NCBI GenBank assembly: GCA_003220495.1
Contig: QHSP01000016.1
Coordinates: 151,831-215,830, forward strand
DNA from: Candidatus Rokuibacteriota bacterium
GTDB lineage: Bacteria; Methylomirabilota; Methylomirabilia; Rokubacteriales; CSP1-6
DNA: 64,000 nucleotides
Direction of reading: 5' to 3'
The position numbers were made by a program, and so were the translations under genes. Positions 15,812-35,045 of this stretch are shown here, one piece after another. Below the pieces are notes generated by a model that was not told where the DNA came from, made no database searches, and saw only the letters and a program-made list of their open reading frames with translations. Positions within the stretch are counted from its first letter, which is position 1; each line of letters opens with the position of its first letter.

Positions 15812-16714
15812 TCAGCCCTTCCGGAGCTTCGGATCGAGCGCGTCCCGGAGGGAATCGCCGAAGAGGTTGAAGCCGAACACGCCGAGGCTGATCGCGATGC
15901 CCGGGAAGAGCGCGATCCACGGCGCCTTCTCGGCATACGACGGCGCGGATCCCGACAGCATCAGCCCCCACGACGGCGTCGGCTCCGCCGCCCCGAGCCC
16001 CAGGTAGGACAGCGCGGCCTCGGCCAGAATCGCGGCGCCGAGCTGCGCGGTCAGCATGATGATGTACGGCGCCGTGACGTTCGGAATGATGTGCTGCAGG
16101 ATCACGCGGCGCCGCGAGGCGCCCAGCGCCTGCACGGCCTCGACGTAGACGTTCTCCTTCACCGATAGGGCGGCCGCCCGCACCACGCGCGCGACGCGCG
16201 GGATGACGGGGATCGAGATCGCGATCACGACGTTCTGAACCGCCGGGCCCAGGATCGACGCGATGGCCAGGGCGAGGATCAGCTGCGGGAACGCCAGCAA
16301 GATATCCATCAGCCGCTCGAGCAGGAGATCGACCCGGCCGCCCCAGTACGCGCTCACGACGCCGAGCAGGGCCCCGATCGTGCAGCCGATGAACGACGCG
16401 AAGAAGCCGACGAACAACGCGATGCGCGCGCCGTACATGATCCGGCTCAGGACATCGCGGCCGAACTCGTCGGTCCCGAACCAGTGCTCGGCGCTCGGCC
16501 GCGCGAACTGGAGCCCGTAGTCGCCGACGTATGGATCGTACGGTGCCAGAATCTGCGCGAACACGGCCAGGAACAGCATGCCGAGAATGATCACGGCCCC
16601 GGCGGCGCCGAGCGGCTTGGTGCGGACGAACCTGGCCGCGACCTCGGCGAAGCTCCGCCTCGGCGCCAGCGTGGCCGACGCGCTCGCGTGAGCCAGCTCG
16701 ATGTTCGTCGCCAT
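15812..16714 (-). CDS. Peptide/nickel-type ABC transporter permease (DppC-like)
   Basis: Inner-membrane permease of 300 aa, six predicted helices, with the N-terminal OppC extension RFVRTKPLGAAGAVIILGM and loop HWFGTDEFGRDVLSRIMYGA that is diagnostic of DppC/OppC. The EAA loop (VEAVQALGASRRRVILQHI) contacts the ATPase. ATG 16714 lies five bases after the stop of the dppB-like gene, so the two are co-transcribed with the three binding proteins. No ATPase genes (dppD/dppF) follow; the next gene is convergent. Confidence 0.92.
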   Translation of the reverse strand: MATNIELAHASASATLAPRRSFAEVAARFVRTKPLGAAGAVIILGMLFLAVFAQILAPYDPYVGDYGLQFARPSAEHWFGTDEFGRDVLSRIMYGARIALFVGFFASFIGCTIGALLGVVSAYWGGRVDLLLERLMDILLAFPQLILALAIASILGPAVQNVVIAISIPVIPRVARVVRAAALSVKENVYVEAVQALGASRRRVILQHIIPNVTAPYIIMLTAQLGAAILAEAALSYLGLGAAEPTPSWGLMLSGSAPSYAEKAPWIALFPGIAISLGVFGFNLFGDSLRDALDPKLRKG

Positions 16715-16719
16715 GGACG

Positions 16720-17676
16720 TCAGCGGTAGCGGATGCGTGGATCGAACCACGCGTAGGTCAGGTCGACGAGCAAGTTGACGACGACGAAGCCGAACGCGAT
16801 GAGGAAGATCAGCGCCTGTACCACCGGGTAGTCCCGGTGGGCGACCGCGTCGACCACGAAGCGCCCGACGCCGTTCAAGGTGAACACGGTCTCGGTGACG
16901 ACCAGCCCGCCGATGAGGAAGGCGAACTCCGTTCCGACCAGGGTGATCACCGGGAGCATCGAGTTCTTCAGGGCGTGACGGACGACGACGGCGCGCTCGC
17001 GCAGCCCCTTCGCCCACGCCGTGCGGATGTAGTCCTCGCGCAGCACCTCGAGCAGGGTGGAGCGCGTCATCCGCGTGGTGACGGCCGCGTAGCGATATCC
17101 GACCGTGACCACGGGCCAGATCATCATCTGGAAGTTCGCCCACGGATCGATCCACGGCGGCGTGAACTCGAGCGGCGGGCCCCAGCCGAAGAAGATCACG
17201 AGCATGAGGATGCAGAGGATGCCGACCCAGAACGACGGGATCGCCAGGCCACCGATGCTGACCACGCGCACGAGGTAGTCCACCCAGGTGTCCTGGCGGA
17301 TCGCGGCGAGCATGCCCAGGGGAATCGCGATCAGGACGGAGACGATCGTCGCGGCGATGGCCAGCTCGAGGGAGAGCGGCAGCCGGATGAGCAGCTCCTC
17401 GATGACGGGCCGGCCCGTCCAGAGCGAGTTACCGAAGTCGAAGCGGAGGATTCCCCAGAGCCACGTGCCGAACTGCACCAGCAGCGGCTGATCGAGCCCG
17501 AGGCGCTGGCGCATGTCCGCGAGCTGCTTGGCATCGATCTGGCCGCCCGCTTCTCCGCCGAAGATCAAGAGCGCCACGTCGCCCGGAATGACCCGCATGA
17601 TCACGAACACCAGCGCCGCGGCGCCAATCAGAGTCGGAACGATCAGCAGAAGCCGTTTCGCGACATACGTGCCCAT
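16720..17676 (-). CDS. Peptide/nickel-type ABC transporter permease (DppB-like)
   Basis: A 318-aa permease. The DppB/OppB signature is visible: start YVAKRLLLIVPTLIGAAALVF, the loop DVALLIFGGEAGGQIDAKQL, RLGLDQPLLVQFGTWL, EAA loop TAWAKGLRERAVVVRHAL and C-terminal ADLTYAWFDPRIRYR-like end (VDLTYAWFDPRIRYR). It forms the heterodimeric channel with the DppC-like partner for oligopeptides or similar solutes delivered by the adjacent binding proteins. Confidence 0.93.
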   Translation of the reverse strand: MGTYVAKRLLLIVPTLIGAAALVFVIMRVIPGDVALLIFGGEAGGQIDAKQLADMRQRLGLDQPLLVQFGTWLWGILRFDFGNSLWTGRPVIEELLIRLPLSLELAIAATIVSVLIAIPLGMLAAIRQDTWVDYLVRVVSIGGLAIPSFWVGILCILMLVIFFGWGPPLEFTPPWIDPWANFQMMIWPVVTVGYRYAAVTTRMTRSTLLEVLREDYIRTAWAKGLRERAVVVRHALKNSMLPVITLVGTEFAFLIGGLVVTETVFTLNGVGRFVVDAVAHRDYPVVQALIFLIAFGFVVVNLLVDLTYAWFDPRIRYR

Positions 17677-17698
17677 CGCCAGCTCTCCGCGCTCTGGA

Positions 17699-19306
17699 TC
17701 AGTCTTCCGACAGCCAGACGTCCTGGAGCTTCTGGTTGGCGTAGTGGTTCGGCGGGGCCACGTAGTTCTTCACTTTGGTCCAGTGGACGACGTTCCGCGT
17801 CCACCAGAGGCCGGGCATGTAGTACGCGTGCTCCAGCACCGTCTTCTGGAGCTGAAGGATCGCTTTCCGTCGCTCCGCGGGGTCGAGCGCGCGCGATTGC
17901 CGTGAGAACAGGTCGTCGACGCCGGGGTCGCTGAAGCGGCCCCAGTTCTGGGGATCCCCGGTGGTGTAGCGCCGCAGGAAGGTATCGGGATCGTCACTGG
18001 CCTCCACGGTCGGCGCGACGATCAGCTCGAAGTTCCCGGTGTCGCGTCCGTCCGCGAACCAGGCCGCGGTCTCGAGCGGACGTTGCTCGGCCTCGATGCC
18101 GATCTTCCGCCATTCCTGAACCGCGAACACGGCGAAGTCCTGGTACGGCAGCTTCACGTTTCGGTTCTTGAGCACGACCTTGAAGCCGTTGGGATAGCCC
18201 GCCTCGGCCAGCAGCCGCTTGGCCTCGGCCCGGTTCTTCTCGATGTCCTTCCCGAACCCCGGAAGTTTCTGAAGATCGGCCTCCGGGAGCGAGAACTCCG
18301 TGCCCGGTCGCAGTAGCGCGCCGACGTCCTTCAGGCTCGCGAGCGGGAACAGCACCCTGCCCATCGTGTAGCGATCGAGTCCGAGCGTGAGCGCCTTGCG
18401 CACGCGCTCGTCGGTGAACGGCTTCGCCATGTTGTTGATGGCGATCCCCCACTGACCGGTCATGGGCGTGTGCTGGACGGCCACCTTGTCGCCGAGCTGC
18501 TTCGTGATCGCCTCGACCTCCGCGTTGGGCAGGTCGCGGAACTCGATGTACGCGCGCCCGGAGCGGATCGCGGCCGCCCGGACCGACGTCTCGGTGCTGA
18601 TGAAGAACTTGTAGCCATTGAGGTACGGCCGGTCCTTGACGAAGTAGTCGGGGTTGCGCTCGCCCTCGAAGCTCGCGCCCGGCGTGTAGCTCTTGAACTT
18701 GAAGGGACCGGAGCCCATCACGTGCTTCATGAAGTAGTTGGGATCCTTGTCCAGGTACTTCTTCGGATAGATCACGTTCCAAGGCGAAGCCAGGTTCAGG
18801 AGCAGCGAGGCCGACGGGAACTTGAGCTTGAAGACGACGGTGCCCGCGTCCGGGGCCTCGACGCTCGTGACGGCCGAGTAGCTGTTCTTCCGCACGCTGC
18901 GCGTCCCTGCGGGCGGAAAGAGGAGCTTGTCGTACGTGGCCTTGACGTCGGCCGCCGTCAGCGGCGACCCGTCGTGAAACTTGATCCCCTGGCGGATCTT
19001 GAACGTATACGTCAGGGCGTCGGGCGAGATCTTCCACTCGCTGGCGGCGTCTCCGATGACCTTGGGATAGTCGTAGGGGTCCGTCTGCAGCAGCGTGCTG
19101 TAGAGCGGAGCCACGAGCTGGAGCGTGGCGAAGGTGCTCTCCTGATGCGGATCGAGGCTCGGCGGATCGGCGCCGATGACCGCCAGGAGAATGCCGCCGC
19201 GACGAGGAGTATCGGCGGCGTGGACGGCCGTGACCGCCAGCCCGACCACGACCGCGAGCGCAACGAAGATGGACAGCGCAAAGGACCGCCGGGCGCCTGC
19301 CGCCAT
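17699..19306 (-). CDS. ABC transporter substrate-binding protein, DppA/OppA family (copy 1, permease-proximal)
   Basis: Family 5 periplasmic binding protein of 535 aa with a signal peptide (basic MAAGARRSF, hydrophobic core, VHAA cleavage). Cluster 5 landmarks: DPPSLDPHQ near residue 50, YDYPKVIGDAASEW, YTFKIRQGIKFHDGSPLTA and VFKLKFPSASLL. It ends with the QKLQDVWLSED tail shared by all three copies. A GGGAGG ribosome site precedes ATG 19306, and a promoter with TTGACA and TACCGT lies upstream. It lies 22 bases before the permease genes, so it is the one most tightly linked to them. The ligand, a peptide or other solute, is unknown. Confidence 0.9.
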   Translation of the reverse strand: MAAGARRSFALSIFVALAVVVGLAVTAVHAADTPRRGGILLAVIGADPPSLDPHQESTFATLQLVAPLYSTLLQTDPYDYPKVIGDAASEWKISPDALTYTFKIRQGIKFHDGSPLTAADVKATYDKLLFPPAGTRSVRKNSYSAVTSVEAPDAGTVVFKLKFPSASLLLNLASPWNVIYPKKYLDKDPNYFMKHVMGSGPFKFKSYTPGASFEGERNPDYFVKDRPYLNGYKFFISTETSVRAAAIRSGRAYIEFRDLPNAEVEAITKQLGDKVAVQHTPMTGQWGIAINNMAKPFTDERVRKALTLGLDRYTMGRVLFPLASLKDVGALLRPGTEFSLPEADLQKLPGFGKDIEKNRAEAKRLLAEAGYPNGFKVVLKNRNVKLPYQDFAVFAVQEWRKIGIEAEQRPLETAAWFADGRDTGNFELIVAPTVEASDDPDTFLRRYTTGDPQNWGRFSDPGVDDLFSRQSRALDPAERRKAILQLQKTVLEHAYYMPGLWWTRNVVHWTKVKNYVAPPNHYANQKLQDVWLSED

Positions 19307-19363
19307 CCGTGACCTCCCGAGCGCTGGGACGCTCGATTGTTTTCTGCTACCGATTAGTGGCGG

Positions 19364-19392
19364 ACGGTACCGCGCGAAACCGCACCTGTCAA
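19364..19392 (-). promoter_or_regulatory. Sigma-70 promoter upstream of binding-protein copy 1
   Basis: Minus strand: TTGACA (19392-19387), 17-base spacer, TACCGT (19369-19364). The same arrangement, with matching flanks (GGTTGACAGG and GTCCGCC), is upstream of copy 3 at 22810-22781, showing that the promoter was duplicated along with the gene. Confidence 0.65.
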
Positions 19393-19443
19393 CCAGTGTC
19401 GCTTGTAAGGCGAGATGTCAGGTGGCGCCGCGGACGGTGGCCC

Positions 19444-21048
19444 TCAGTCTTCCGACAGCCAGACGTCCTGGAGCTTTTGATTCGAGTAGTGATTGGGCGG
19501 GGCCACATAGTTCTTCACCTTGGCCCAGTGCACCACGCTCCGCGCCCACCAGAGACCCGGGATGTGGTACGCGTTCTCGAGGACGATCTTCTCCATCTCG
19601 TTCACGAGCCGCTTGCGCTCGGCAGGGTCCAGGGCCCGCGTCTGGCGCGCGAAGAGGTCGTCGATCCGGGGATCGGAGAAGCGCCCCCAGTTGTTGGTGT
19701 CCCCCGTGGTGTACCGCTCGAGAAACAGATCGGGGTCGTCCATGTAGTTGAAGACCCCGTTGATGATCACCTCGAAGCTTCCCGTGTCCCGCCCATCCGC
19801 GAACCAGGCCGCGGTTTCGAGCGGCCGGTGCTCGGCCTCGATCCCGATCTTGCGCCACTCCTGGACGACGAACACGCCGAAGTCGATGTACGGAACTCGC
19901 ACGTTGCGGTTCTTCAGGACGACTTTGAAGCCGTTGGGGTAGCCCGCCTCGGCGAGAAGGCGCTTCGCCTCGGCCCGGTTCTTTTCCGAATCCCTCCCGA
20001 ACCCCGGCAGTTTCAGAAGCTCGGACTCCGGCGTCGCGAACTCGGTACCCGGGCGCATCAGTCCGCCGACGTCCTTCAGGCTCGCGATCGGGTAGAGCAC
20101 CCTGCTCGCGGTATACCGGTCGAGGCCCAGGGTGAGGGCCTTGCGGACGCGAATGTCCGCGAACGGCTTCGTGGTCTGGTTCATCGCGATCCCGAACTGG
20201 CCGGTCGCGGCCGTGTCCTGCACGACGACCTTGTCCCCGAGCTGTTTTCGGATCGCTTCCACCTCGGCCAAAGGCATGGTGCGGAACTCGATCCAGGCGC
20301 GCCCGGAACGCAGCGCGGCCGCCCGCACGGACGTCTCGGTGCTAATGAAGAACTTGTAGCCGTCGAGGTATGGACGGTCCTTGACGAAATAGTCGGGGTT
20401 CCGCTCGCCCTCGAACGTCGAGCCGCGCGTATAGCTCTTGAATTTGAACGGCCCCGAGCCCACGACGTTCGACTTGAAGTAGTTGGGGTCGCGGTCCAGG
20501 TACTTCTTTGGAAAGATGACATTCCACGGTGAGGCCAGGTTGCCGAGCAGCGAGGCCGACGGGAACTTGAGCAAGAACACGACGGTGGTCGGGTCCGGCG
20601 CCTCGATGCTCGCGATCGCGCTGTAGGCATTCTTCCGAATGCTCCGGACTCCCGAGGGTGGGAAGACGATCTTGTCGTAGGTGGCCTTGACGTCGGCCGA
20701 CGTCAAGGTCGAGCCGTCGTGGAACCGGATTCCTTGCCGGAGCTTGAACGTGTAGGTGAGCCCGTCTGGCGCGATTTTCCACTCGGTCGCCGCGTCGCCG
20801 ATGATCTTCGGATAGCTGAGCGGGTCGATCTGGATCAGCGTGCTGTAGAGCGGCGCCACCAGCTCGATGGTGGCGAAGGTCTGCTCCTGATGCGGATCGA
20901 GGCTCGGCGCGTCGGCCGCGATGGCGGCGAGCAGGACGCCGCCGCGGCGCGGCGTCTCCGCCTGGACCGCGGCCGGCGCCACCACGACCAGGGAGCCGAT
21001 CAGTACACAGAGCCCAACGACGGCGATAATCGTCCGATGGCGTCGCAT
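19444..21048 (-). CDS. ABC transporter substrate-binding protein, DppA/OppA family (copy 2)
   Basis: A 534-aa paralogue of the neighbouring binding proteins. The signal peptide runs to about residue 30 (VQAE), then DAPSLDPHQEQTFATIELVA, LSYPKIIGDAATEW, YTFKLRQGIRFHDGSTLTS and the C-terminal QKLQDVWLSED. Ligand-pocket residues are not conserved throughout (for example the IINGVFNYMDDPDLFLERY region differs among the copies), so the specificities may differ. ATG 21048 lies one base beyond the stop of copy 3, and its GGAGG site is inside the end of copy 3. It therefore has no promoter space of its own and depends on copy 3 transcription. Confidence 0.9.
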   Translation of the reverse strand: MRRHRTIIAVVGLCVLIGSLVVVAPAAVQAETPRRGGVLLAAIAADAPSLDPHQEQTFATIELVAPLYSTLIQIDPLSYPKIIGDAATEWKIAPDGLTYTFKLRQGIRFHDGSTLTSADVKATYDKIVFPPSGVRSIRKNAYSAIASIEAPDPTTVVFLLKFPSASLLGNLASPWNVIFPKKYLDRDPNYFKSNVVGSGPFKFKSYTRGSTFEGERNPDYFVKDRPYLDGYKFFISTETSVRAAALRSGRAWIEFRTMPLAEVEAIRKQLGDKVVVQDTAATGQFGIAMNQTTKPFADIRVRKALTLGLDRYTASRVLYPIASLKDVGGLMRPGTEFATPESELLKLPGFGRDSEKNRAEAKRLLAEAGYPNGFKVVLKNRNVRVPYIDFGVFVVQEWRKIGIEAEHRPLETAAWFADGRDTGSFEVIINGVFNYMDDPDLFLERYTTGDTNNWGRFSDPRIDDLFARQTRALDPAERKRLVNEMEKIVLENAYHIPGLWWARSVVHWAKVKNYVAPPNHYSNQKLQDVWLSED

Positions 21049-21049
21049 C

Positions 21050-22663
21050 TCAATCCTCCGACAGCCACACGTCTTGGAGTTTCTGATTGGTGAAGTGACT
21101 GGGCGGAGCCACCCAGTTCTTCATCTTGGCCCAGTGCACCACGTTCCTCGACCACCAGAGACCCGGGATGTGGTACGCCTGCTCCAGCACGATCTTCTGG
21201 AGGTCGATCACGAGCTTCCGGCGCTCCACCGGGTCGAGCGTCCGTGCCTGACGGTCGTACAGATCGTCGATCCCGGGGTTGGAGAAGCGGCCCCAGTTCT
21301 GAGAGGACCCGGTGATGAACGGCGCGAGCAACGCGTCGGGATCGTCGACGAAGTGGCCGGTCGGAAACACCACCACCTCGAAGCTCCCCTGGTCCCGTCC
21401 GTCCGCGTACCAGGCCGCCGTCTCGAGCGGCCGGTGCTCGGCCTCGACTCCGATCTTGCGCCATTCCTGGATCACGTACACCGCCCAGTCCTGGTAGGGG
21501 AGCTTGATGTTGCGATTCTTCAGCACCACCTTGAAGCCGTTCGGGTAGCCCGCCTCGGCCAGGAGCCGCCTGGCCTCGGCGCGGTTCTTCTCGGCGTCGC
21601 GCCCGAAGCCCGCGAACTTCTCGAGCTCGGCCGGCGCCATCGCCCACTCCGTGCCCGGACGGGTGAACGCCCCGACGTCCCGCAGACCCGTGAGCGGATA
21701 CAGGACCCTGCCCGCCGTGTAGCGATCGATGCCGAGGTTGAGGGCTTTCCGCACGCGAATATCACTGAACGGCTTCGCGGTGTTGTTGATCGCGATGTCG
21801 AAGTGGATGACGAAGGGAGTCTGCTGGACCATGACCTTGTCGCCCAGCTGCTTCCGGATCGCCTCGACCTCGGCCATCGGCAAGTCCCGGAACTCGACGT
21901 AGGCGCGGCCCGAGCGGACCGCCGCGGCGCGCACGGAGGTCTCGGTGCTGATGAAGTACTTGTAGCCGTTGAGATGCGGCCGGTCCTTGACGAAATAGTC
22001 GGGGTTGCGCTCGCCTTCGAACGACGATCCGCGCGTATAGCTCTTGAACCGGAAGGGGCCGGAGCCCATGACGTTGCTCTTGAAATGGTTCGGGTCCTTG
22101 TCGAGGTATTTTTTCGGGAAGATCACGTTCCACGGCGAGGCGAGATTCGTGAGGAGCGAGGCCGACGGGAACTTGAGCTTGAACAGGACGGTGCTCGGAT
22201 CCGGCGCCTCGACGCTCTCCACCGCCGAATAGTGGTGTTTTCGGATGCTGCGTACGCCCTCCGGCGGAAAGAGGATCTTGTCATAGCTGGCCTTGACGTC
22301 GGCGGACGTCAGCGGCGAGCTGTCGTGGAAGCGGATGCCCGGGCGAATCTTGAACGTGTAGAGGAGCCCGTCGGGCGAGATCTTCCACTCGCTGGCCACG
22401 TCGCCGATGATGCTCGGATAGCTGTACGGATCGATCTGCAAGAGCGTGCTGTACAGCGGGGAGACCGGTTGGAGCGTGGCGAAGGTTTGCTCCTGGTGCG
22501 GGTCGAGGCTCGGCGCGTCAGCCCCGATGGCCGCCAGGAGGACGCCGCCGCGGCGCGGGGTCTCGGCCGACTGCGCGGCGGCGAGGACGGCCAGACACCC
22601 GACCACGGCCGTCAGCGCGACGGCAAAAACGAACGTTTGGTGACGCCGGACCCCTGTCGCCAT
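21050..22663 (-). CDS. ABC transporter substrate-binding protein, DppA/OppA family (copy 3, promoter-proximal)
   Basis: First gene of the transcription unit: 537 aa from ATG 22663, which follows GGGAGGTG. The frame is open further upstream, but the signal peptide starts here (MATGVRRHQ, hydrophobic stretch, AAQSAETP). Conserved segments match the other copies (DAPSLDPHQEQTFATLQPVS, YTFKIRPGIRFHDSSPLTS, QKLQDVWLSED). The segment PTGHFVDDPDALLAPFITG differs from the others and lies where cluster 5 proteins contact ligand, suggesting a different preferred solute. Strong similarity over the full length and shared termini show tandem duplication. Confidence 0.9.
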   Translation of the reverse strand: MATGVRRHQTFVFAVALTAVVGCLAVLAAAQSAETPRRGGVLLAAIGADAPSLDPHQEQTFATLQPVSPLYSTLLQIDPYSYPSIIGDVASEWKISPDGLLYTFKIRPGIRFHDSSPLTSADVKASYDKILFPPEGVRSIRKHHYSAVESVEAPDPSTVLFKLKFPSASLLTNLASPWNVIFPKKYLDKDPNHFKSNVMGSGPFRFKSYTRGSSFEGERNPDYFVKDRPHLNGYKYFISTETSVRAAAVRSGRAYVEFRDLPMAEVEAIRKQLGDKVMVQQTPFVIHFDIAINNTAKPFSDIRVRKALNLGIDRYTAGRVLYPLTGLRDVGAFTRPGTEWAMAPAELEKFAGFGRDAEKNRAEARRLLAEAGYPNGFKVVLKNRNIKLPYQDWAVYVIQEWRKIGVEAEHRPLETAAWYADGRDQGSFEVVVFPTGHFVDDPDALLAPFITGSSQNWGRFSNPGIDDLYDRQARTLDPVERRKLVIDLQKIVLEQAYHIPGLWWSRNVVHWAKMKNWVAPPSHFTNQKLQDVWLSED

Positions 22664-22780
22664 CTGGCACCTCCCGAGACTTTGGGCGTTCGCCGGGACT
22701 GAACCGAACAGGGACAGGACGGGACGTCGAGCTCGCTTGGGGCGGGCGTGCATGCCGCCGGACCCGGCCCGACGCGGCGG

Positions 22781-23865: not shown

Positions 23866-23934
23866 GCGCTGGACCCCCGCAGTATGCTCGGAGTGCCCAC
23901 ATCTTACTCCCACACGCCGCGACAGGAGGAGGGA

Positions 23935-24960
23935 ATGCCGCTCCCGAAGATCGCGGCTGTCGCCACCGCGACGCCGCCCCACCGCTTCACGCAGTCCGAG
24001 CTTCTGACGCTCGCGGGCTACCGAGACGAGGAGCGGAGCGGATTCTTTCGCCGCAGCGACATCGAGGGCCGCTATCTGTGGATCGATCCGGCGACCTTCC
24101 GGCCGAACGAATCGGTCGACGAGCTCGGCGACCGCTTTCGCGAGGGCGCGCTCGAGCTCGGCGAAGCGGCGGCGCGGCGCGCGCTCGCACGCGCCGGCTG
24201 GACCGCGGTCGACGTGGACTTCGTCGCGACGACGACCTGCACCGGACGGCTGACGCCCAGTCTCGACGCCCGCCTGATCGGCCGGCTCGGCTGCCGCGCC
24301 GACGTCCAGCGCGTTCACGTCGGCGACACCGGCTGCGCGTCGGCGATGGTGGCGCTCCAGCAGGCGTCGAACTACGTCACCGCCTTTCCCGGGCGCCGAG
24401 CACTGGTCGTCGCGGTCGAGATCTGCTCGGCCGCCTACTTCCTCGACGACCGGCTCGAGAGCGCAGTGGCGCACGCCATCTTCGCCGACGGCGCCGGCGC
24501 CCTCGCCGTGACGACGGATGGACCGGGGCCCGCGCTCGTCGCCCAGCGGACACTCTTTCGTCCCGAGCACCTCGACGCGATGGGATTCGAGTATCCGGGC
24601 GGCCGGCCGCGCGTCGTGCTCTCCAAGGACGTGCGTCGCATCGGCGCGATCATGATGGGTGAGATGGCGGCGATCCTGATGGCGGCGCAGGGGCTCAAGC
24701 GAGACGACATCCGGTACTGGGTCCTCCACTCGGCGGGACGACGAGTGATCGACCGCGCCAGGACGCTGCTCGAGCTCAGCGAGGAGCAGGTCGGCCACTC
24801 GCGCGCCGTGCTTCGGCGCTTCGGCAACATGTCATCGGCCACGATCCTCTTCGTACTGGACGAAACACTCCGTCAGGAGTCTCCGGTTCCCGGCGACTGG
24901 GGCGTCATGATCGGCCTCGGCCCTGGCTTCGCCGCTGAGGGAGCGCTGCTGCGGTGGTGA
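23935..24960 (+). CDS. Type III polyketide synthase (chalcone/alkylresorcinol synthase-like)
   Basis: Homodimeric ketosynthase that condenses malonyl-CoA with an acyl starter to give alkylresorcinols or alkylpyrones. The catalytic triad is visible: Cys134 (GDTGCASAM), His265 (WVLHSAGR) and Asn298 (FGNMSSATILFVLDE). The latter is the chalcone synthase-type GNMSSA motif. The length, 341 aa, is near the family norm of 350-390. ATG 23935 follows ACAGGAGGAGGG. The 13-base gap to a methyltransferase, which overlaps an FAD oxidoreductase, makes a three-gene operon like Streptomyces srsABC. Starter acyl chain and product cannot be read from the sequence. Confidence 0.92.
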   Translation: MPLPKIAAVATATPPHRFTQSELLTLAGYRDEERSGFFRRSDIEGRYLWIDPATFRPNESVDELGDRFREGALELGEAAARRALARAGWTAVDVDFVATTTCTGRLTPSLDARLIGRLGCRADVQRVHVGDTGCASAMVALQQASNYVTAFPGRRALVVAVEICSAAYFLDDRLESAVAHAIFADGAGALAVTTDGPGPALVAQRTLFRPEHLDAMGFEYPGGRPRVVLSKDVRRIGAIMMGEMAAILMAAQGLKRDDIRYWVLHSAGRRVIDRARTLLELSEEQVGHSRAVLRRFGNMSSATILFVLDETLRQESPVPGDWGVMIGLGPGFAAEGALLRW

Positions 24961-24973
24961 GCAGCACAGACTC

Positions 24974-25669
24974 ATGAAGCGGGCCGAGGGCGCGCACGAG
25001 GTTCTCGACGGCGCCGTCGCGGCGCCGGAGCTCGCGGCGTCGCTGGCGGACATCGACCGGCTCAACAGCTGGTTCGGCGGGTACGCGCTCTCGCTGCGCG
25101 CGATCCGTCGCCTGGCGGCCGACGTGCCGCGTGATCGGCCGCTTCGCGTCATCGACGTCGGCGGTGGTACGGCGGCGTTCGCGGTGCGGGTCGCCGAGTG
25201 GGCGCGCCGTAGCGGGCGTGCCGTTCGCGTGGTGGTCGTCGATCGCGATCCGACCACGCTTCGGCTCGCGCGCGAGACCGTGGCGACGTATCCCGAGATC
25301 GTGCTGGTCCGCGGCGACGCGGCCGCGCTGCCTTGCCGCGAGCGGGGCGCCGACATCGTCACCAGCGCCCTCACGCTGCACCACCTCGAGCCGGCGCAGG
25401 CCGCGGTGGGCCTGCGCGAGATGGCGGCGGCCGCCCGGATCGCCGTGGTCGTGAACGATCTCCTCCGTCGCCGTCTCTCACTCGGCCTCGTCTGGCTCGC
25501 GACGCGTCTGCTCGGGTGCCACCCGATCTCGCGCCACGACGGCCCGCTCTCGGTCCGACGCGCCTATTCGCGGGACGAGCTGCGGGCGCTCGCCGAGAAG
25601 GCCGGCGCGCGGCGATTGACGATCCGCGAGTACCCCGTGCTCGGGCGCCTGCTGGCGGTCCTGTCGTGA
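24974..25669 (+). CDS. SAM-dependent methyltransferase of the PKS operon
   Basis: A 231-aa class I methyltransferase. The SAM loop is RVIDVGGGTAAFAVRVAE near residue 58; the acidic end of strand 2 is VVVDRDPT; motif II is ADIVTSALTLHHLEPAQ. A hydrophobic C-terminal segment (LSLGLVWLATRLLGC) may sit on the membrane or bind a lipid acceptor. It probably methylates a hydroxyl or ring carbon of the polyketide lipid made by the upstream PKS. It overlaps the FAD gene by four bases (GTGA). Confidence 0.88.
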   Translation: MKRAEGAHEVLDGAVAAPELAASLADIDRLNSWFGGYALSLRAIRRLAADVPRDRPLRVIDVGGGTAAFAVRVAEWARRSGRAVRVVVVDRDPTTLRLARETVATYPEIVLVRGDAAALPCRERGADIVTSALTLHHLEPAQAAVGLREMAAAARIAVVVNDLLRRRLSLGLVWLATRLLGCHPISRHDGPLSVRRAYSRDELRALAEKAGARRLTIREYPVLGRLLAVLS

Positions 25670-26868
25670 CGACCGACGTCATCGTCGTCGGCGCCGGCCC
25701 CGCGGGCGCGGCCACGGCCATTCTCCTGGCCGAGCACGGGCTCTCCGTGCGCCTGCTCGATCGCGCGCGATTTCCGCGGCCGAAGATCTGCGGAGAGTAC
25801 CTGAGCCCCGAGGCGCCGCGGCTGCTCGACCGGCTCGGCGCGCTCAAGGCCGTCGACGCCGTCGCCAGCGCCTTGAAGGGCATGCGCATCACCGCGCCCA
25901 ACGGCCGGACGCTCGTCGGCACCTACCGGCCGATCGGCGCCTGGCGTCCCTATCGCGAGCACGCGATGGCGATCACGCGCGAAGCCCTCGACGCGATCCT
26001 GGTCGACCGCGTCCGCTCGCTGCCGGTCGACTTCCGCGAGCACACGCGCGTCACCGACGTCGTCGTCTCGGGCGGCCGCGTCGTCGGCGTCGACGCGATC
26101 GACGGCGACACCCGTCGCCAGACGCTCCGCGCTCCGCTGACGATCGCGGCCGACGGCCGCGCCTCGGTCGTTGCGCAGCGGCTCGGACTGCGCCGGCCGC
26201 ATCCGCTCCAGCGGATGGCAATGGTCACCTACGTCGAGGACGTGAGCGGGCTCGGTCGACTCGGCGAGATCTTCGTCGATCCGCCGGACTACGCGATCCT
26301 CAACCCGGTGGCGCCCGGCCGCGCGAACCTGAGCGTGATCGTGCCGCTGTCGCACGCGGCGCCGTGGAGCGGTCGGCTCGACACGTTCTTCGACGCGCGC
26401 GTGAAGCATTTGCCCCATCTCGCCCGGCGCATCGCCGGCGGCCGGCGGGTCGCGCCCGTCCGCGCCATGGGCCCGCTCGCGTACCGGGTCGACCCGCCGC
26501 GGACCGGCGGCGTGCTCATGGTGGGCGACGCCACCGGCTTCTTCGATCCGTTCTCGGGCGAGGGCATCTTCAACGGTCTCCGGAGCGCCGAGCTGGCCGT
26601 GGAGACCGCGGTCCAGGCGCTCGGGCGCGGCGACGTGTCGGCGCGCGCGCTCGCCGGCTACGATCGCGCCCGACGCCTGGCGTCTCGCGACAAGGAGCGG
26701 GTGACGTACGCGCTCCAGATCGTCATCAGCCACCGCCGCCTCGCGAACCTGGCGGCGCGGTTCCTCGCGCGCCGCCCGCGCCTGCTCGACCTCCTGCTCG
26801 GCGTCCTCGGCGACTTCGTGCCGCCCCGCGCGCTCCTGAGCGGTATCTTCGCGCGCTCACGATTCTGA
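25666..26868 (+). CDS. FAD-dependent oxidoreductase (geranylgeranyl reductase/PHBH-like)
   Basis: A 400-aa flavoprotein. It has an N-terminal Rossmann motif VIVVGAGPAGAATAILLAE, ARFPRPKICGEYLSP (typical of the geranylgeranyl reductase branch), a middle AADGRASVVAQRLGL and the FAD-ribityl motif GDATGFFDPFSGEGIFNGL. Such enzymes hydroxylate aromatic rings or reduce prenyl double bonds. In an operon after a type III PKS and a methyltransferase, ring hydroxylation to a quinol or quinone is the likeliest role. GTG 25666 is coupled to the methyltransferase stop. A helical C-terminal region (LANLAARFLARRPRLLDLL) may be membrane-associated. Confidence 0.9.
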   Translation: MTTDVIVVGAGPAGAATAILLAEHGLSVRLLDRARFPRPKICGEYLSPEAPRLLDRLGALKAVDAVASALKGMRITAPNGRTLVGTYRPIGAWRPYREHAMAITREALDAILVDRVRSLPVDFREHTRVTDVVVSGGRVVGVDAIDGDTRRQTLRAPLTIAADGRASVVAQRLGLRRPHPLQRMAMVTYVEDVSGLGRLGEIFVDPPDYAILNPVAPGRANLSVIVPLSHAAPWSGRLDTFFDARVKHLPHLARRIAGGRRVAPVRAMGPLAYRVDPPRTGGVLMVGDATGFFDPFSGEGIFNGLRSAELAVETAVQALGRGDVSARALAGYDRARRLASRDKERVTYALQIVISHRRLANLAARFLARRPRLLDLLLGVLGDFVPPRALLSGIFARSRF

Positions 26869-30135: not shown

Positions 30136-32010
<1,875 letters not shown>

Positions 32011-32088
32011 ACGGCCGATACGTCCAATGCCGGCTCGCGTCTCTCTCAGGCCACCCGCGGCGCGATCCGTTCTCCTAGTACTCGACAC

Positions 32089-33588
32089 ATGATCCCGCTC
32101 GTCTCGGTCGTCACGTTCCTGCCGGGCCTCGCCGGGCTGGCGCTGTTGCTGGTGCCGCAGCGCGCTGACCGCGTGCTGCGGCCGGCCGCGCTCGGCGTGG
32201 CGGTCGTCACGTTCCTGCTGTCGCTGCCGCTCTACTTCGGGTTCGACGCCGAGCTCATCGGCTACCAGTTCGAGGAGCACGGGCGGTGGATGCCGACGCT
32301 CGGGGTGAGCTACCACGTGGGGATCGACGGCATCAGCCTCCTGCTCGTGCTCCTGACGACCTTTCTGATGCCGCTGGCGCTCGCGTCGGCCTGGGGCTCG
32401 ATCGAGGACCGGATCAAAGAGTTCGTGGCGACCATGCTGATCCTCGAGACCGGGATGCTCGGCGTCTTCGTCAGCCTCGATCTCTTCCTGTTCTACGTGT
32501 TCTGGGAGGCGATGCTGATTCCGATGTACTTCGTCATCGGCGTTTGGGGCGGACCGAACCGGATCTACGCCGCCATCAAGTTCGTCCTCTACACGATGGT
32601 CGGCTCCGTCCTCATGCTGGTGGCGATCCTCGCCCTGTACCATCAGTACGGCGGCGCCACGGGCCGATACACGTTCGACTTGCCGGTGCTGGCGCAGTAC
32701 GTGATGGCGCCGGGCCGCGCGCAGGACCTCATGTTCCTCGCCTTTGCGCTGGCCTTCGCGATCAAGGTGCCGCTGTTCCCGTTCCACACCTGGCTGCCCG
32801 ACGCCCACGTCGAGGCGCCGACCGCCGGCAGCGTGATCCTGGCCGGTGTCCTGCTGAAGATGGGGACGTACGGGTTCCTGCGCTTCTGCCTGCCGCTCTT
32901 CCCGGACGCGAGCCTCGCGTTCGGGCCGCTGGTCTTCACGCTCGCGGTGATCGGCGTGATCTACGGCGCGTGGGTGTCCACGGTGCAGCCCGACATGAAG
33001 AAGCTCGTGGCCTACTCGAGCGTGAGCCACCTGGGCTTCGTGATGCTCGGCATCTTCACGCTCAACCAGCAAGGGCTCGTCGGCGGCCTCATCCAGATGG
33101 TGAACCACGGGCTCTCCACGGGCGCGCTCTTCCTGATGGTCGGGATGATCTACGAGCGCCGCCACTCCCGGCTCATCGCCGACTTCGGCGGCCTCTGGCA
33201 GGTCGTCCCGGCCTTCTCGGCGCTCTTCCTGGTCGTCACCCTGTCCTCGCTCGGGCTGCCGGGGTTGAACGGGTTCGTCGGCGAGTTCCTGATCCTGGTC
33301 GGCGCCTTTCAGCGCAATCCGTGGATGGCCGCGCTGGCGACGACCGGGATCATCTTCGCCGCGGTCTACATGCTCTGGATGTATCAGCGCGTCGTGTTCG
33401 GCGAGGTCACGCAGGACGCGAACCGTCGGCTCGCCGACCTCACCACGCGCGAGTGGGCGGTGCTCGTCCCGGTCGTGACGCTCATCGTGTGGATCGGCGT
33501 GTATCCGGCGGCGTTCACCGGCAAGACCGAGACCACCATCGAGGCGCTGATCGCCCAGGTCCAGGCGAAGACCAGCGCGAACCGCTGA
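32089..33588 (+). CDS. nuoM: NADH-quinone oxidoreductase subunit M
   Basis: Proton-translocating subunit of complex I, 499 aa with 14 helices. Visible landmarks: LFLFYVFWEAMLIPMYFVIGVWGG (essential Glu), AFAIKVPLFPFHTWLPDAHVEAPTAGSVILAGVLLKMGTYG (essential Lys and the TM8 His), and VQPDMKKLVAYSSVSHLGFVMLG. It is 78 bases after nuoL; that gap has no recognised feature. It is two bases from nuoN. Confidence 0.96.
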   Translation: MIPLVSVVTFLPGLAGLALLLVPQRADRVLRPAALGVAVVTFLLSLPLYFGFDAELIGYQFEEHGRWMPTLGVSYHVGIDGISLLLVLLTTFLMPLALASAWGSIEDRIKEFVATMLILETGMLGVFVSLDLFLFYVFWEAMLIPMYFVIGVWGGPNRIYAAIKFVLYTMVGSVLMLVAILALYHQYGGATGRYTFDLPVLAQYVMAPGRAQDLMFLAFALAFAIKVPLFPFHTWLPDAHVEAPTAGSVILAGVLLKMGTYGFLRFCLPLFPDASLAFGPLVFTLAVIGVIYGAWVSTVQPDMKKLVAYSSVSHLGFVMLGIFTLNQQGLVGGLIQMVNHGLSTGALFLMVGMIYERRHSRLIADFGGLWQVVPAFSALFLVVTLSSLGLPGLNGFVGEFLILVGAFQRNPWMAALATTGIIFAAVYMLWMYQRVVFGEVTQDANRRLADLTTREWAVLVPVVTLIVWIGVYPAAFTGKTETTIEALIAQVQAKTSANR

Positions 33589-33590
33589 CC

Positions 33591-35045
33591 ATGGACGCGA
33601 TCGTCTTCCCGCCCGTCCTCATCGGGCCCCTGTTGCCGACCCTGGTCGTGCTCGCCGCCGCCGCGCTCGTGCTGGTGCTCGACGTCGTCCCCTGGGCGAT
33701 CCCGCGCGAGGTCGCGGCGATGGTCGCGCTCGCTGGCATGATCGGGGCGCTCCTGGCCACGCTCGCGCGGTGGAGCGCGCCGGGGCGCGCGTTCCGCGAC
33801 ATGGTCGTGCTCGACAACTTCGCGCTCTTCTTCAACGTGGTCATCTGTTACGCGGGCGCGCTCATCGTGCTGCTCTCGATGGACTACCTGCGCCGCACCG
33901 GCAGCGAGTCGAGCGAGTACTGGGCCCTCGTGCTCTTCGCGACCGCCGGCATGATGCTCCTCGCGGCGGCCGGCGATCTGGTCGTCGTGTTCCTGGCCCT
34001 CGAGCTGATGTCGTTGTCGCTCTACGTCCTCGCCGGTCTGTTCAAGCGGGAGCTCGCCTCGGGCGAGGCGGCGATGAAGTATTTCCTCCTGGGCGCGTTC
34101 GCCTCGTCGTTCCTCCTCTACGGCATCGCCCTCATCTACGGCGCCACCGGAACGACGAACCTCGACCGGATCGCCGCGGCGATCGCCTCGCGGCCCCGCG
34201 ACCCGCTGTTCGGCATCGGCCTGGGGCTCTTGATGGTCGGGTTCGGCTTCAAGATCTCCTCGGTGCCGTTTCACATGTGGGTGCCCGACGTGTACCAGGG
34301 AGCGCCGACGAGCGTGACGGCGCTGATCGCGACCGGCTCCAAGGCCGGCGCCTTCGCGGCCTTGATCCGCGTGCTGACCGTGACCCTGCGCGGTGTCCCG
34401 CCAGACTGGGCGGCGCTGCTCTGGGTGATCGCGGCCGTCACGATGACCGTGGGCAACGTGGTGGCGCTCGCGCAGTCGAATCTCAAGCGGATGCTCGCCT
34501 ATTCGTCGATCGCGCACGTCGGCTACATGCTGGTCGGCCTGGTCGCCGGGGGGGTGGGCGGAGCCGGCTCGGTGCTCTTCTATCTGCTGACCTACACCTT
34601 CACGACCGCCGGCGCCTTCGGGGTGATCACCCTGTGCGAGCGCGCCCGCGGTGAGGCGGTCGAGGTGTCCGACTACGCCGGGCTCGCGCGGCGGCACCCG
34701 GTGCTGGCGGCGGCGCTCGGGCTCTTTCTGCTCTCGCTGGTCGGTATTCCTCCGCTGGCCGGCTTCGTCGGGAAGTTCTACGTGTTCGGCGCCGCCGTGC
34801 GCGCGGGCTATTTCTGGCTGGCGGTCATCGGCGTGCTGAACTCCGCGGCGGCCGCGTACTACTACCTGCGAGTCGTCGTCTTCATGTACATGCGCGAGCC
34901 GGAGGGAGCCGCCACCACCTACGCCTCGTCGTTTGCCGGCAGCCTCGCGCTGGCGATCGCGCTCCTCGCGATCGTGCTCCTCGGCGTGATGCCGGCCCCG
35001 TTCGTCGACCTCGCTCAAGCCGCCGTCGCCCCCCTCCTCCGCTAG
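33591..35045 (+). CDS. nuoN: NADH-quinone oxidoreductase subunit N
   Basis: A 484-aa antiporter-like subunit of complex I. ATG 33591 is directly after the nuoM stop (two-base gap). Conserved regions: VVFLALELMSLSLYVLAGL (essential Glu), GFKISSVPFHMWVPDVYQGAPTSVTALIATGSKAGAF (Lys) and AQSNLKRMLAYSSIAHVGYML. It completes the L-M-N distal membrane arm; the rest of the complex must be encoded elsewhere. Confidence 0.95.
   Translation: MDAIVFPPVLIGPLLPTLVVLAAAALVLVLDVVPWAIPREVAAMVALAGMIGALLATLARWSAPGRAFRDMVVLDNFALFFNVVICYAGALIVLLSMDYLRRTGSESSEYWALVLFATAGMMLLAAAGDLVVVFLALELMSLSLYVLAGLFKRELASGEAAMKYFLLGAFASSFLLYGIALIYGATGTTNLDRIAAAIASRPRDPLFGIGLGLLMVGFGFKISSVPFHMWVPDVYQGAPTSVTALIATGSKAGAFAALIRVLTVTLRGVPPDWAALLWVIAAVTMTVGNVVALAQSNLKRMLAYSSIAHVGYMLVGLVAGGVGGAGSVLFYLLTYTFTTAGAFGVITLCERARGEAVEVSDYAGLARRHPVLAAALGLFLLSLVGIPPLAGFVGKFYVFGAAVRAGYFWLAVIGVLNSAAAAYYYLRVVVFMYMREPEGAATTYASSFAGSLALAIALLAIVLLGVMPAPFVDLAQAAVAPLLR

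Follow-up and report, generated by a model that had tools for sequence, protein, structure and literature searches.

A Conserved Polyketide Synthase Gene Trio in Methylomirabilota

The 64,000-nucleotide stretch analyzed in this study (hereafter, the window) covers positions 151,831 to 215,830 of contig QHSP01000016.1 from a Candidatus Rokuibacteriota bacterium (assembly GCA_003220495.1; G000 in our genome set), a member of the Rokubacteria in the phylum Methylomirabilota (NC10). Genes for a type III polyketide synthase (PKS), a methyltransferase (MT), and a flavoprotein form a compact, co-directional unit at 23935-26868 of the window. This trio is a real, conserved, and new variant of the phenolic-lipid trio, and its phylum-wide retention is the surprising part. 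No report of the trio in Methylomirabilota or Rokubacteria was found in the open-access literature.

Retention was assessed in 95 genomes of the phylum, 53 of which were of good quality (at least 90% complete and at most 5% contaminated). An unfiltered PKS search gave matches in 89 of the 95 genomes; of those with E values of 1e-11 to 1e-17, most were FabH-like. Because the weaker matches were largely FabH-like, only matches of at least 300 bits were counted, and 89/95 was dropped as a measure of phylum-wide conservation. A PKS of the window's clade was then present in 76 genomes, including 49 of the 53 good-quality ones (the exceptions were G010, G014, G020, and G088), and in seven of ten families; none came from f3, f8, or f9, each represented by one genome. 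Seventy-nine loci around PKS matches were fetched, four of them around other paralogues. For the linkage counts, which included the window, at least 400 bp of contig was required for the MT and at least 2 kb for the flavoprotein, so that 3 and 8 of 76 loci, respectively, were set aside as too short. The MT lay downstream of the PKS in the same orientation in 72 of 73 loci, and the flavoprotein was present in 63 of 68. The exceptions were G065, in which the PKS is split, and G021, G023, G027, and G029, which have no flavoprotein beside the MT; G021 carries a 71% copy elsewhere in its genome. Clustering of neighbors by BLAST was contaminated by shadow open reading frames (ORFs) and was kept out of these counts.

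Four within-genus comparisons per gene put the ratio of nonsynonymous to synonymous substitution rates (dN/dS) at 0.10-0.17 (PKS), 0.13-0.24 (MT), and 0.10-0.19 (flavoprotein). Since adjacency and order are held across the phylum and dN/dS is 0.10-0.24, chance linkage of the three genes can be ruled out. The preliminary description of this DNA had staked its proposal on conservation and linkage of the trio in relatives, and both were found. The trio is therefore close to a core trait of the phylum, and its presence in nearly all genomes sampled points to a routine function of its product in the membrane rather than to an occasional natural product. Type III PKS trios usually occur as accessory clusters of patchy distribution; this one is kept at a frequency similar to that of menaquinone genes (MqnC at an E value of 1e-30 in 52 of the 53 good-quality genomes, a PF02621 gene in 51), with a vertical-looking PKS tree. 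The phylum has important roles in methane and nitrogen turnover and in soil, and includes methane-eating nitrite reducers.

Gene Organization of the Trio

All three genes lie on the forward strand, and all three proteins passed Pfam cut-offs. The PKS (341 amino acids; 23935-24960) matches Chal_sti_synt_N/C and ACP_syn_III_C, and a Shine-Dalgarno-like AGGAGGAGG was read just 5' of its start (23924-23932). After a gap of 13 bp follows a class I S-adenosylmethionine (SAM)-dependent MT of 231 amino acids (24974-25669; Methyltransf_25/11), assigned by NCBIfam to the PRK06202 (NF004851) family. The flavoprotein (400 amino acids; 25666-26868; FAD_binding_3) is a flavin adenine dinucleotide (FAD)-dependent oxidoreductase/hydroxylase of the geranylgeranyl reductase superfamily, assigned with Pfam, NCBIfam, and a structural model. 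Its GTG start and the end of the MT gene share 4 nt (GTGA), which makes translational coupling of these two genes plausible. This arrangement agrees with the coupled trio of the preliminary description; the hydrophobic tail that had been ascribed to the MT is not of membrane length, the C-terminus reading only as a short EYPVLGRLLAVLS.

Phylogeny and Active Site of the Polyketide Synthase

The catalytic triad Cys134-His265-Asn298, noted earlier from the window alone, was invariant in all 39 aligned PKS rows. The closest PDB relative of the window PKS was Pks11 (1e-47). The structural model (mean predicted local distance difference test score, pLDDT, 93.3) superimposed on Pks11 over 337 residues with a Z score of 47.8 and a root-mean-square deviation of 1.6. 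The window PKS is thus a type III PKS with the chalcone-synthase fold. In a 60-row tree, the PKSs of the phylum formed one group (support 100/100), apart from the hid-type (100/98) and Pks11-group (100/99) enzymes, so that the window PKS falls outside the hid-type clade. Groupings within the phylum clade mirrored the host families, which fits vertical descent.

A signature of R105, F218, and A267 (HSAG) was present in all 25 phylum rows, whereas hid rows had F/A/M/L, W, and G at these positions, with HPGG. Position 218 is thus an aromatic F in the phylum and W in the hid and Pks11 groups. It appears to correspond to ArsB W281, a mapping that depends on the G284/M293 spacing of ArsC as given in part of a review; this spacing of nine fits the W and M in hid-type rows.

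A contig scan yielded 79 PKS loci, of which 57 came from NC10/Rokubacteria at 59-100% identity; the remaining 22, mostly from Planctomycetota, were at 29-38%. This drop from about 60% to 38% outside the phylum is that of loci carrying one of two exact peptide patterns. A pattern-free search of 294 Planctomycetota genomes gave a best PKS match of 40%. Gene order was MT-FAD-PKS in 17 of the 22 out-of-phylum loci. The best planctomycete match, at L213 (4041-6801; genome G299), belongs to a trio with a third order, PKS-FAD-MT. Two additional paralogues were observed: a type III PKS of the DpgA group beside FabF- and ACP-looking genes (L078, G048), and a Pks11-like PKS 50% identical to Mycobacterium tuberculosis Pks11 (L079, G079).

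Two of the good-quality genomes without the clade PKS, G010 and G014 (family f6), carry another PKS together with an MT (L080, L081); the MT was assigned to PRK06202 in the scan of G014. The RlmN on these contigs was 79-81% identical to that of other f6 genomes, indicating that the contigs truly belong to f6. The G010 PKS matched, essentially residue for residue, that of L197, which falls in the hid-type group. This possible natural replacement of the clade PKS, although seen in two genomes only, would agree with a shared alkylresorcinol function. L197 itself (JAAXQF010000232.1) comes from a Desulfuromonadales metagenome-assembled genome, and its RlmN is 98% identical to that of G014; by these matches, the contig is probably misbinned.

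Methyltransferase and Flavoprotein

PRK06202 was the top NCBIfam family for the window MT (136 bits) and also for two MTs of planctomycete trios (222 and 232 bits), three other MTs of the phylum (157-185 bits), two from Kiritimatiellae (163-164 bits), the L213 MT (111 bits), and the MT beside the G014 hid-type PKS (128 bits). At 1e-10, PRK06202 matched neither a UbiE nor two other MTs encoded at these loci. Window-type and planctomycete-trio MTs were up to 40% identical (E value 7e-43), and the MTs of the phylum grouped together (Shimodaira-Hasegawa-like approximate likelihood-ratio test 93) in a tree with long outgroup rows. Judged by homology, the window MT is akin to an alkylresorcinol-pathway MT.

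The top NCBIfam model for the flavoprotein was TIGR02032, at 146.8 bits below its cut-off of 158.8; the same model ranked first for the flavoproteins of planctomycete trios and of a Streptomyces PKS-ICMT-FAD operon. The structural model (pLDDT 94.1) fits aromatic monooxygenase and halogenase folds at Z scores of 44.5-35, with FasV and flavin halogenases at 44.5 to 42, the geranylgeranyl-reductase-like 3oz2 at 38.2, and p-hydroxybenzoate hydroxylase at about 37. Flavin-dependent halogenases carry the motif WxWxIP. This motif was absent from the window flavoprotein, which has YAILNP around an invariant Tyr209 at the corresponding place, as judged by eye. A ring hydroxylase is the likeliest prediction. 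An unrelated flavoprotein fragment (L215) scored 163 bits against a hidden Markov model of the trio flavoproteins, and FAD homology alone was therefore not used as evidence.

Predicted Pathway and Alternative Explanations

Homology to the planctomycete trios and to the srs/pkq operons leads us to expect a methylated, hydroxylated alkylresorcinol or quinone from the window trio. We tentatively favor the view that the trio represents this phylum's form of the hierridin/polyketide-quinone pathway, producing a methylated, ring-hydroxylated alkylresorcinol that would plausibly serve as an auxiliary membrane quinone; the lipid quinone of the preliminary description is accordingly judged a plausible product. 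We infer the following route from starter to final role. The PKS would load a fatty acyl starter on Cys134, extend it with malonyl units, and use an aldol condensation to form the resorcinol ring. The MT may then methylate a ring carbon or a phenol oxygen, and the flavoprotein may hydroxylate the ring to give a methylated alkyl-hydroquinone able to cycle to the quinone. This lipid would remain in the membrane, serving constitutively in an auxiliary redox or antioxidant function beside menaquinone made by the futalosine route.

A possible carrier is encoded in several families outside the Rokubacteria, in which a YceI-like gene (PF04264) lies between the MT and flavoprotein genes: two whole copies and one partial among four f5 loci, five of five in f6, two of three in f7, and two of 14 plus one remnant in f10. 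YceI has an isoprenoid/lipid-binding, lipocalin-like fold, and in families carrying the gene it might bind or shuttle the lipid. A YceI gene was also found about 1.9 kb upstream of the type III PKS in three of ten planctomycete loci fetched. The lipid interpretation is supported by the homology of the MT to planctomycete-trio MTs, a flavoprotein superfamily shared with the Streptomyces operon, the aromatic F218, the position of YceI beside MT/FAD genes and planctomycete PKSs, and the flavoprotein fold. The MT-FAD-PKS order in 17 of 22 out-of-phylum loci, the alkylresorcinols obtained on expression of planctomycete trios, and a retention in the phylum similar to that of MqnC and PF02621 point the same way.

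Several observations weigh against this interpretation. The phylum PKS clade is sister to DpgA (90/95) and thus nearer to it than to the hid-type or Pks11 enzymes, and DpgA yields a product that is not a lipid, from malonyl-CoA only (PMC6274091, in part). Positions of the Pks18 tunnel are mixed in the phylum clade: Cys164 is permissive, whereas L23 and Y168 are bulkier than Pks18 A52 and A209. In the flavoprotein tree, which has long branches and a wrong ORF in outgroup row L230, the trio members did not group exclusively. The four genomes with no flavoprotein adjacent to the MT belong to f10, the Methylomirabilis family, and YceI was not found in Rokubacteria loci, the window included. Finally, a planctomycete flavoprotein gave no hydroxylated product on expression (PMC10896814).

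The trio does not replace a missing menaquinone: the same genomes carry MqnC (above its own cut-off in 72 of 95) and a PF02621 gene, which rules out that explanation. Neither MenD nor UbiG exceeded its cut-off in any of the 14 genomes queried, and with the futalosine menaquinone genes in place any trio quinone would be a second one. In the window's genome, the single PF02621 copy (C120, 148624-150537; L115, 8625-10538) is MqnD-like by sequence and adjoins MqnC; a second, MqnA-like copy is missing from the window's genus and from many other f1 genomes. Two f5 genomes (G006 and G007), reported as 100% complete with 7-10% contamination, have no PF02621 gene, no MqnC, MenD, or UbiG above cut-off, and no PKS.

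The presence of futalosine enzymes, which makes a second quinone dispensable, also favors the strongest rival: the same chemistry would lead to a methylated alkylresorcinol or alkylpyrone, yet one that serves the membrane as a structural phenolic lipid rather than as a redox carrier, with the flavoprotein hydroxylating or otherwise tailoring it. In Azotobacter cysts, alkylresorcinols take the place of membrane phospholipids (PMC4824345, in part), and the PKS fold is closest to the alkylpyrone synthase Pks11. However, the FAD hydroxylase of the srs/pkq operons converts the alkylresorcinol to a quinone (PMC9927152, in part), and we consider a purely structural lipid doubtful. It seems unlikely, in turn, that the trio makes a core electron carrier working alongside menaquinone, that is, a second, phylum-wide respiratory quinone in the form of a methylated alkyl-benzoquinone made by a distinct PKS clade, with YceI as carrier in several families. 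If so, nitrite-dependent intra-aerobic methanotrophs and soil Rokubacteria would run a polyketide quinone as a core rather than a conditional carrier.

The sister relationship to DpgA raises a further alternative, in which the PKS converts four malonyl-CoA to 3,5-dihydroxyphenylacetate or another small aromatic that is then methylated and hydroxylated to a cofactor precursor or secreted metabolite. The window PKS scored 235.9 bits with the DpgA model, compared with 166 and 147 for two hid-group PKSs, and shares with DpgA the residues A167, Y168, and H-S ahead of the second motif glycine. This score is nevertheless far under the cut-off of 425 (a real DpgA reached 621.9), and the motifs TGF/L and HSGG of the DpgA clade differ from TGR and HSAG here. 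DpgB and DpgC, present beside DpgA at L206, were not among the trio neighbors scanned, the rest of the genome not having been searched. The MT belongs to the alkylresorcinol-trio family, and the association with YceI likewise speaks for a lipid; a DpgA-like role is improbable on balance. A true prenyl- or geranylgeranyl-type reductase acting with an unlinked UbiA prenyltransferase to give a reduced isoprenoid-polyketide hybrid would accord with the name of TIGR02032 (geranylgeranyl reductase family), the three UbiA-family genes in the genome, and UbiE and UbiA just downstream of the flavoprotein in one f6 genome, but the score below cut-off, structural neighbors that are mostly aromatic monooxygenases and halogenases, a trio without a UbiA gene, and the restriction of the UbiE/UbiA neighborhood to that one genome make it very improbable.

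If the favored product, the methylated and ring-hydroxylated alkylresorcinol, is redox active, polyketide quinones (PkQs), a hypoxia back-up in Actinomycetota, would here be constitutive in a whole phylum, and a lipid biomarker could be sought in Methylomirabilis enrichments.

Genomic Neighborhood

Among the 79 fetched loci, which are short and give lower bounds, genes near the PKS included gamma-carbonic anhydrase (at least 46), M23 peptidase (at least 30), RraA (at least 29), NuoL (at least 20), and NuoM (at least 14). In the window, three Proton_antipo_M proteins of the NuoL/M/N type are encoded at 30136-35045, starting 3.3 kb downstream of the trio; because opposite-strand genes lie between, this proximity is suggestive only. 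Three tandem OppA-like solute-binding protein genes and permease genes occupy 15812-22753 on the reverse strand, one of each confirmed by Pfam (SBP_bac_5, BPD_transp_1). The UbiE and UbiA genes shortly downstream of an f6 trio flavoprotein are those of G011 (L053, 8458-10066).

Comparison with Known Systems

DpgA represents the nearest PKS clade, and a DpgA-group paralogue (G048b) was 37-40% identical to phylum members; the active-site motifs given above set the two apart. The Saltatorellus ferox cluster encodes a lipoprotein, a lipid/isoprenoid-binding protein, two MTs, and a PKS. Its lipid-binding gene beside an alkylresorcinol PKS parallels the YceI insert; unlike the trio, it is without a flavoprotein, and its PKS clusters with methylmalonyl-using enzymes according to its paper. 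Similar-looking loci in our data set belong to the Pks11 group.

The srsABC/pkqABC operons of Actinomycetota share the order PKS-MT-FAD with the window and the phylum, as had been proposed, and TIGR02032 is likewise the top model for their flavoprotein. The preliminary description had further suggested that both tailoring enzymes come from subfamilies different from those of srsABC. This was borne out for the MT, which is a class I SAM-dependent enzyme of PRK06202 with no Pfam match to ICMT, whereas the MT of the Streptomyces operon at L207 matches ICMT (PF04140); it did not hold for the flavoprotein. The L207 PKS also differs in falling in the Pks11 group. In these operons, an MT and a hydroxylase turn an alkylresorcinol into a benzoquinone, with PkQs serving as alternative electron carriers (PMC9927152, in part).

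The nearest gene-by-gene parallel, not named in the preliminary description, is the hierridin/planctomycete alkylresorcinol trio, as a PRK06202 MT and a flavoprotein of the geranylgeranyl reductase superfamily lie beside the window PKS. As described in parts of PMC8086630, cyanobacterial hidABC also has a PKS-first order (hidC>hidA>hidB). The planctomycete MT-oxidoreductase-PKS trio shares the three-gene make-up, the PRK06202 MT, and the flavoprotein superfamily; its PKSs gave pentadecyl and heptadecyl resorcinols on expression, and adding mtr and fdo led to a single C-methylation (PMC10896814, in part). The window trio differs from it in a PKS of another clade (31-38% identical), the order PKS-MT-FAD, phylum-wide retention, and the YceI insert of its relatives.

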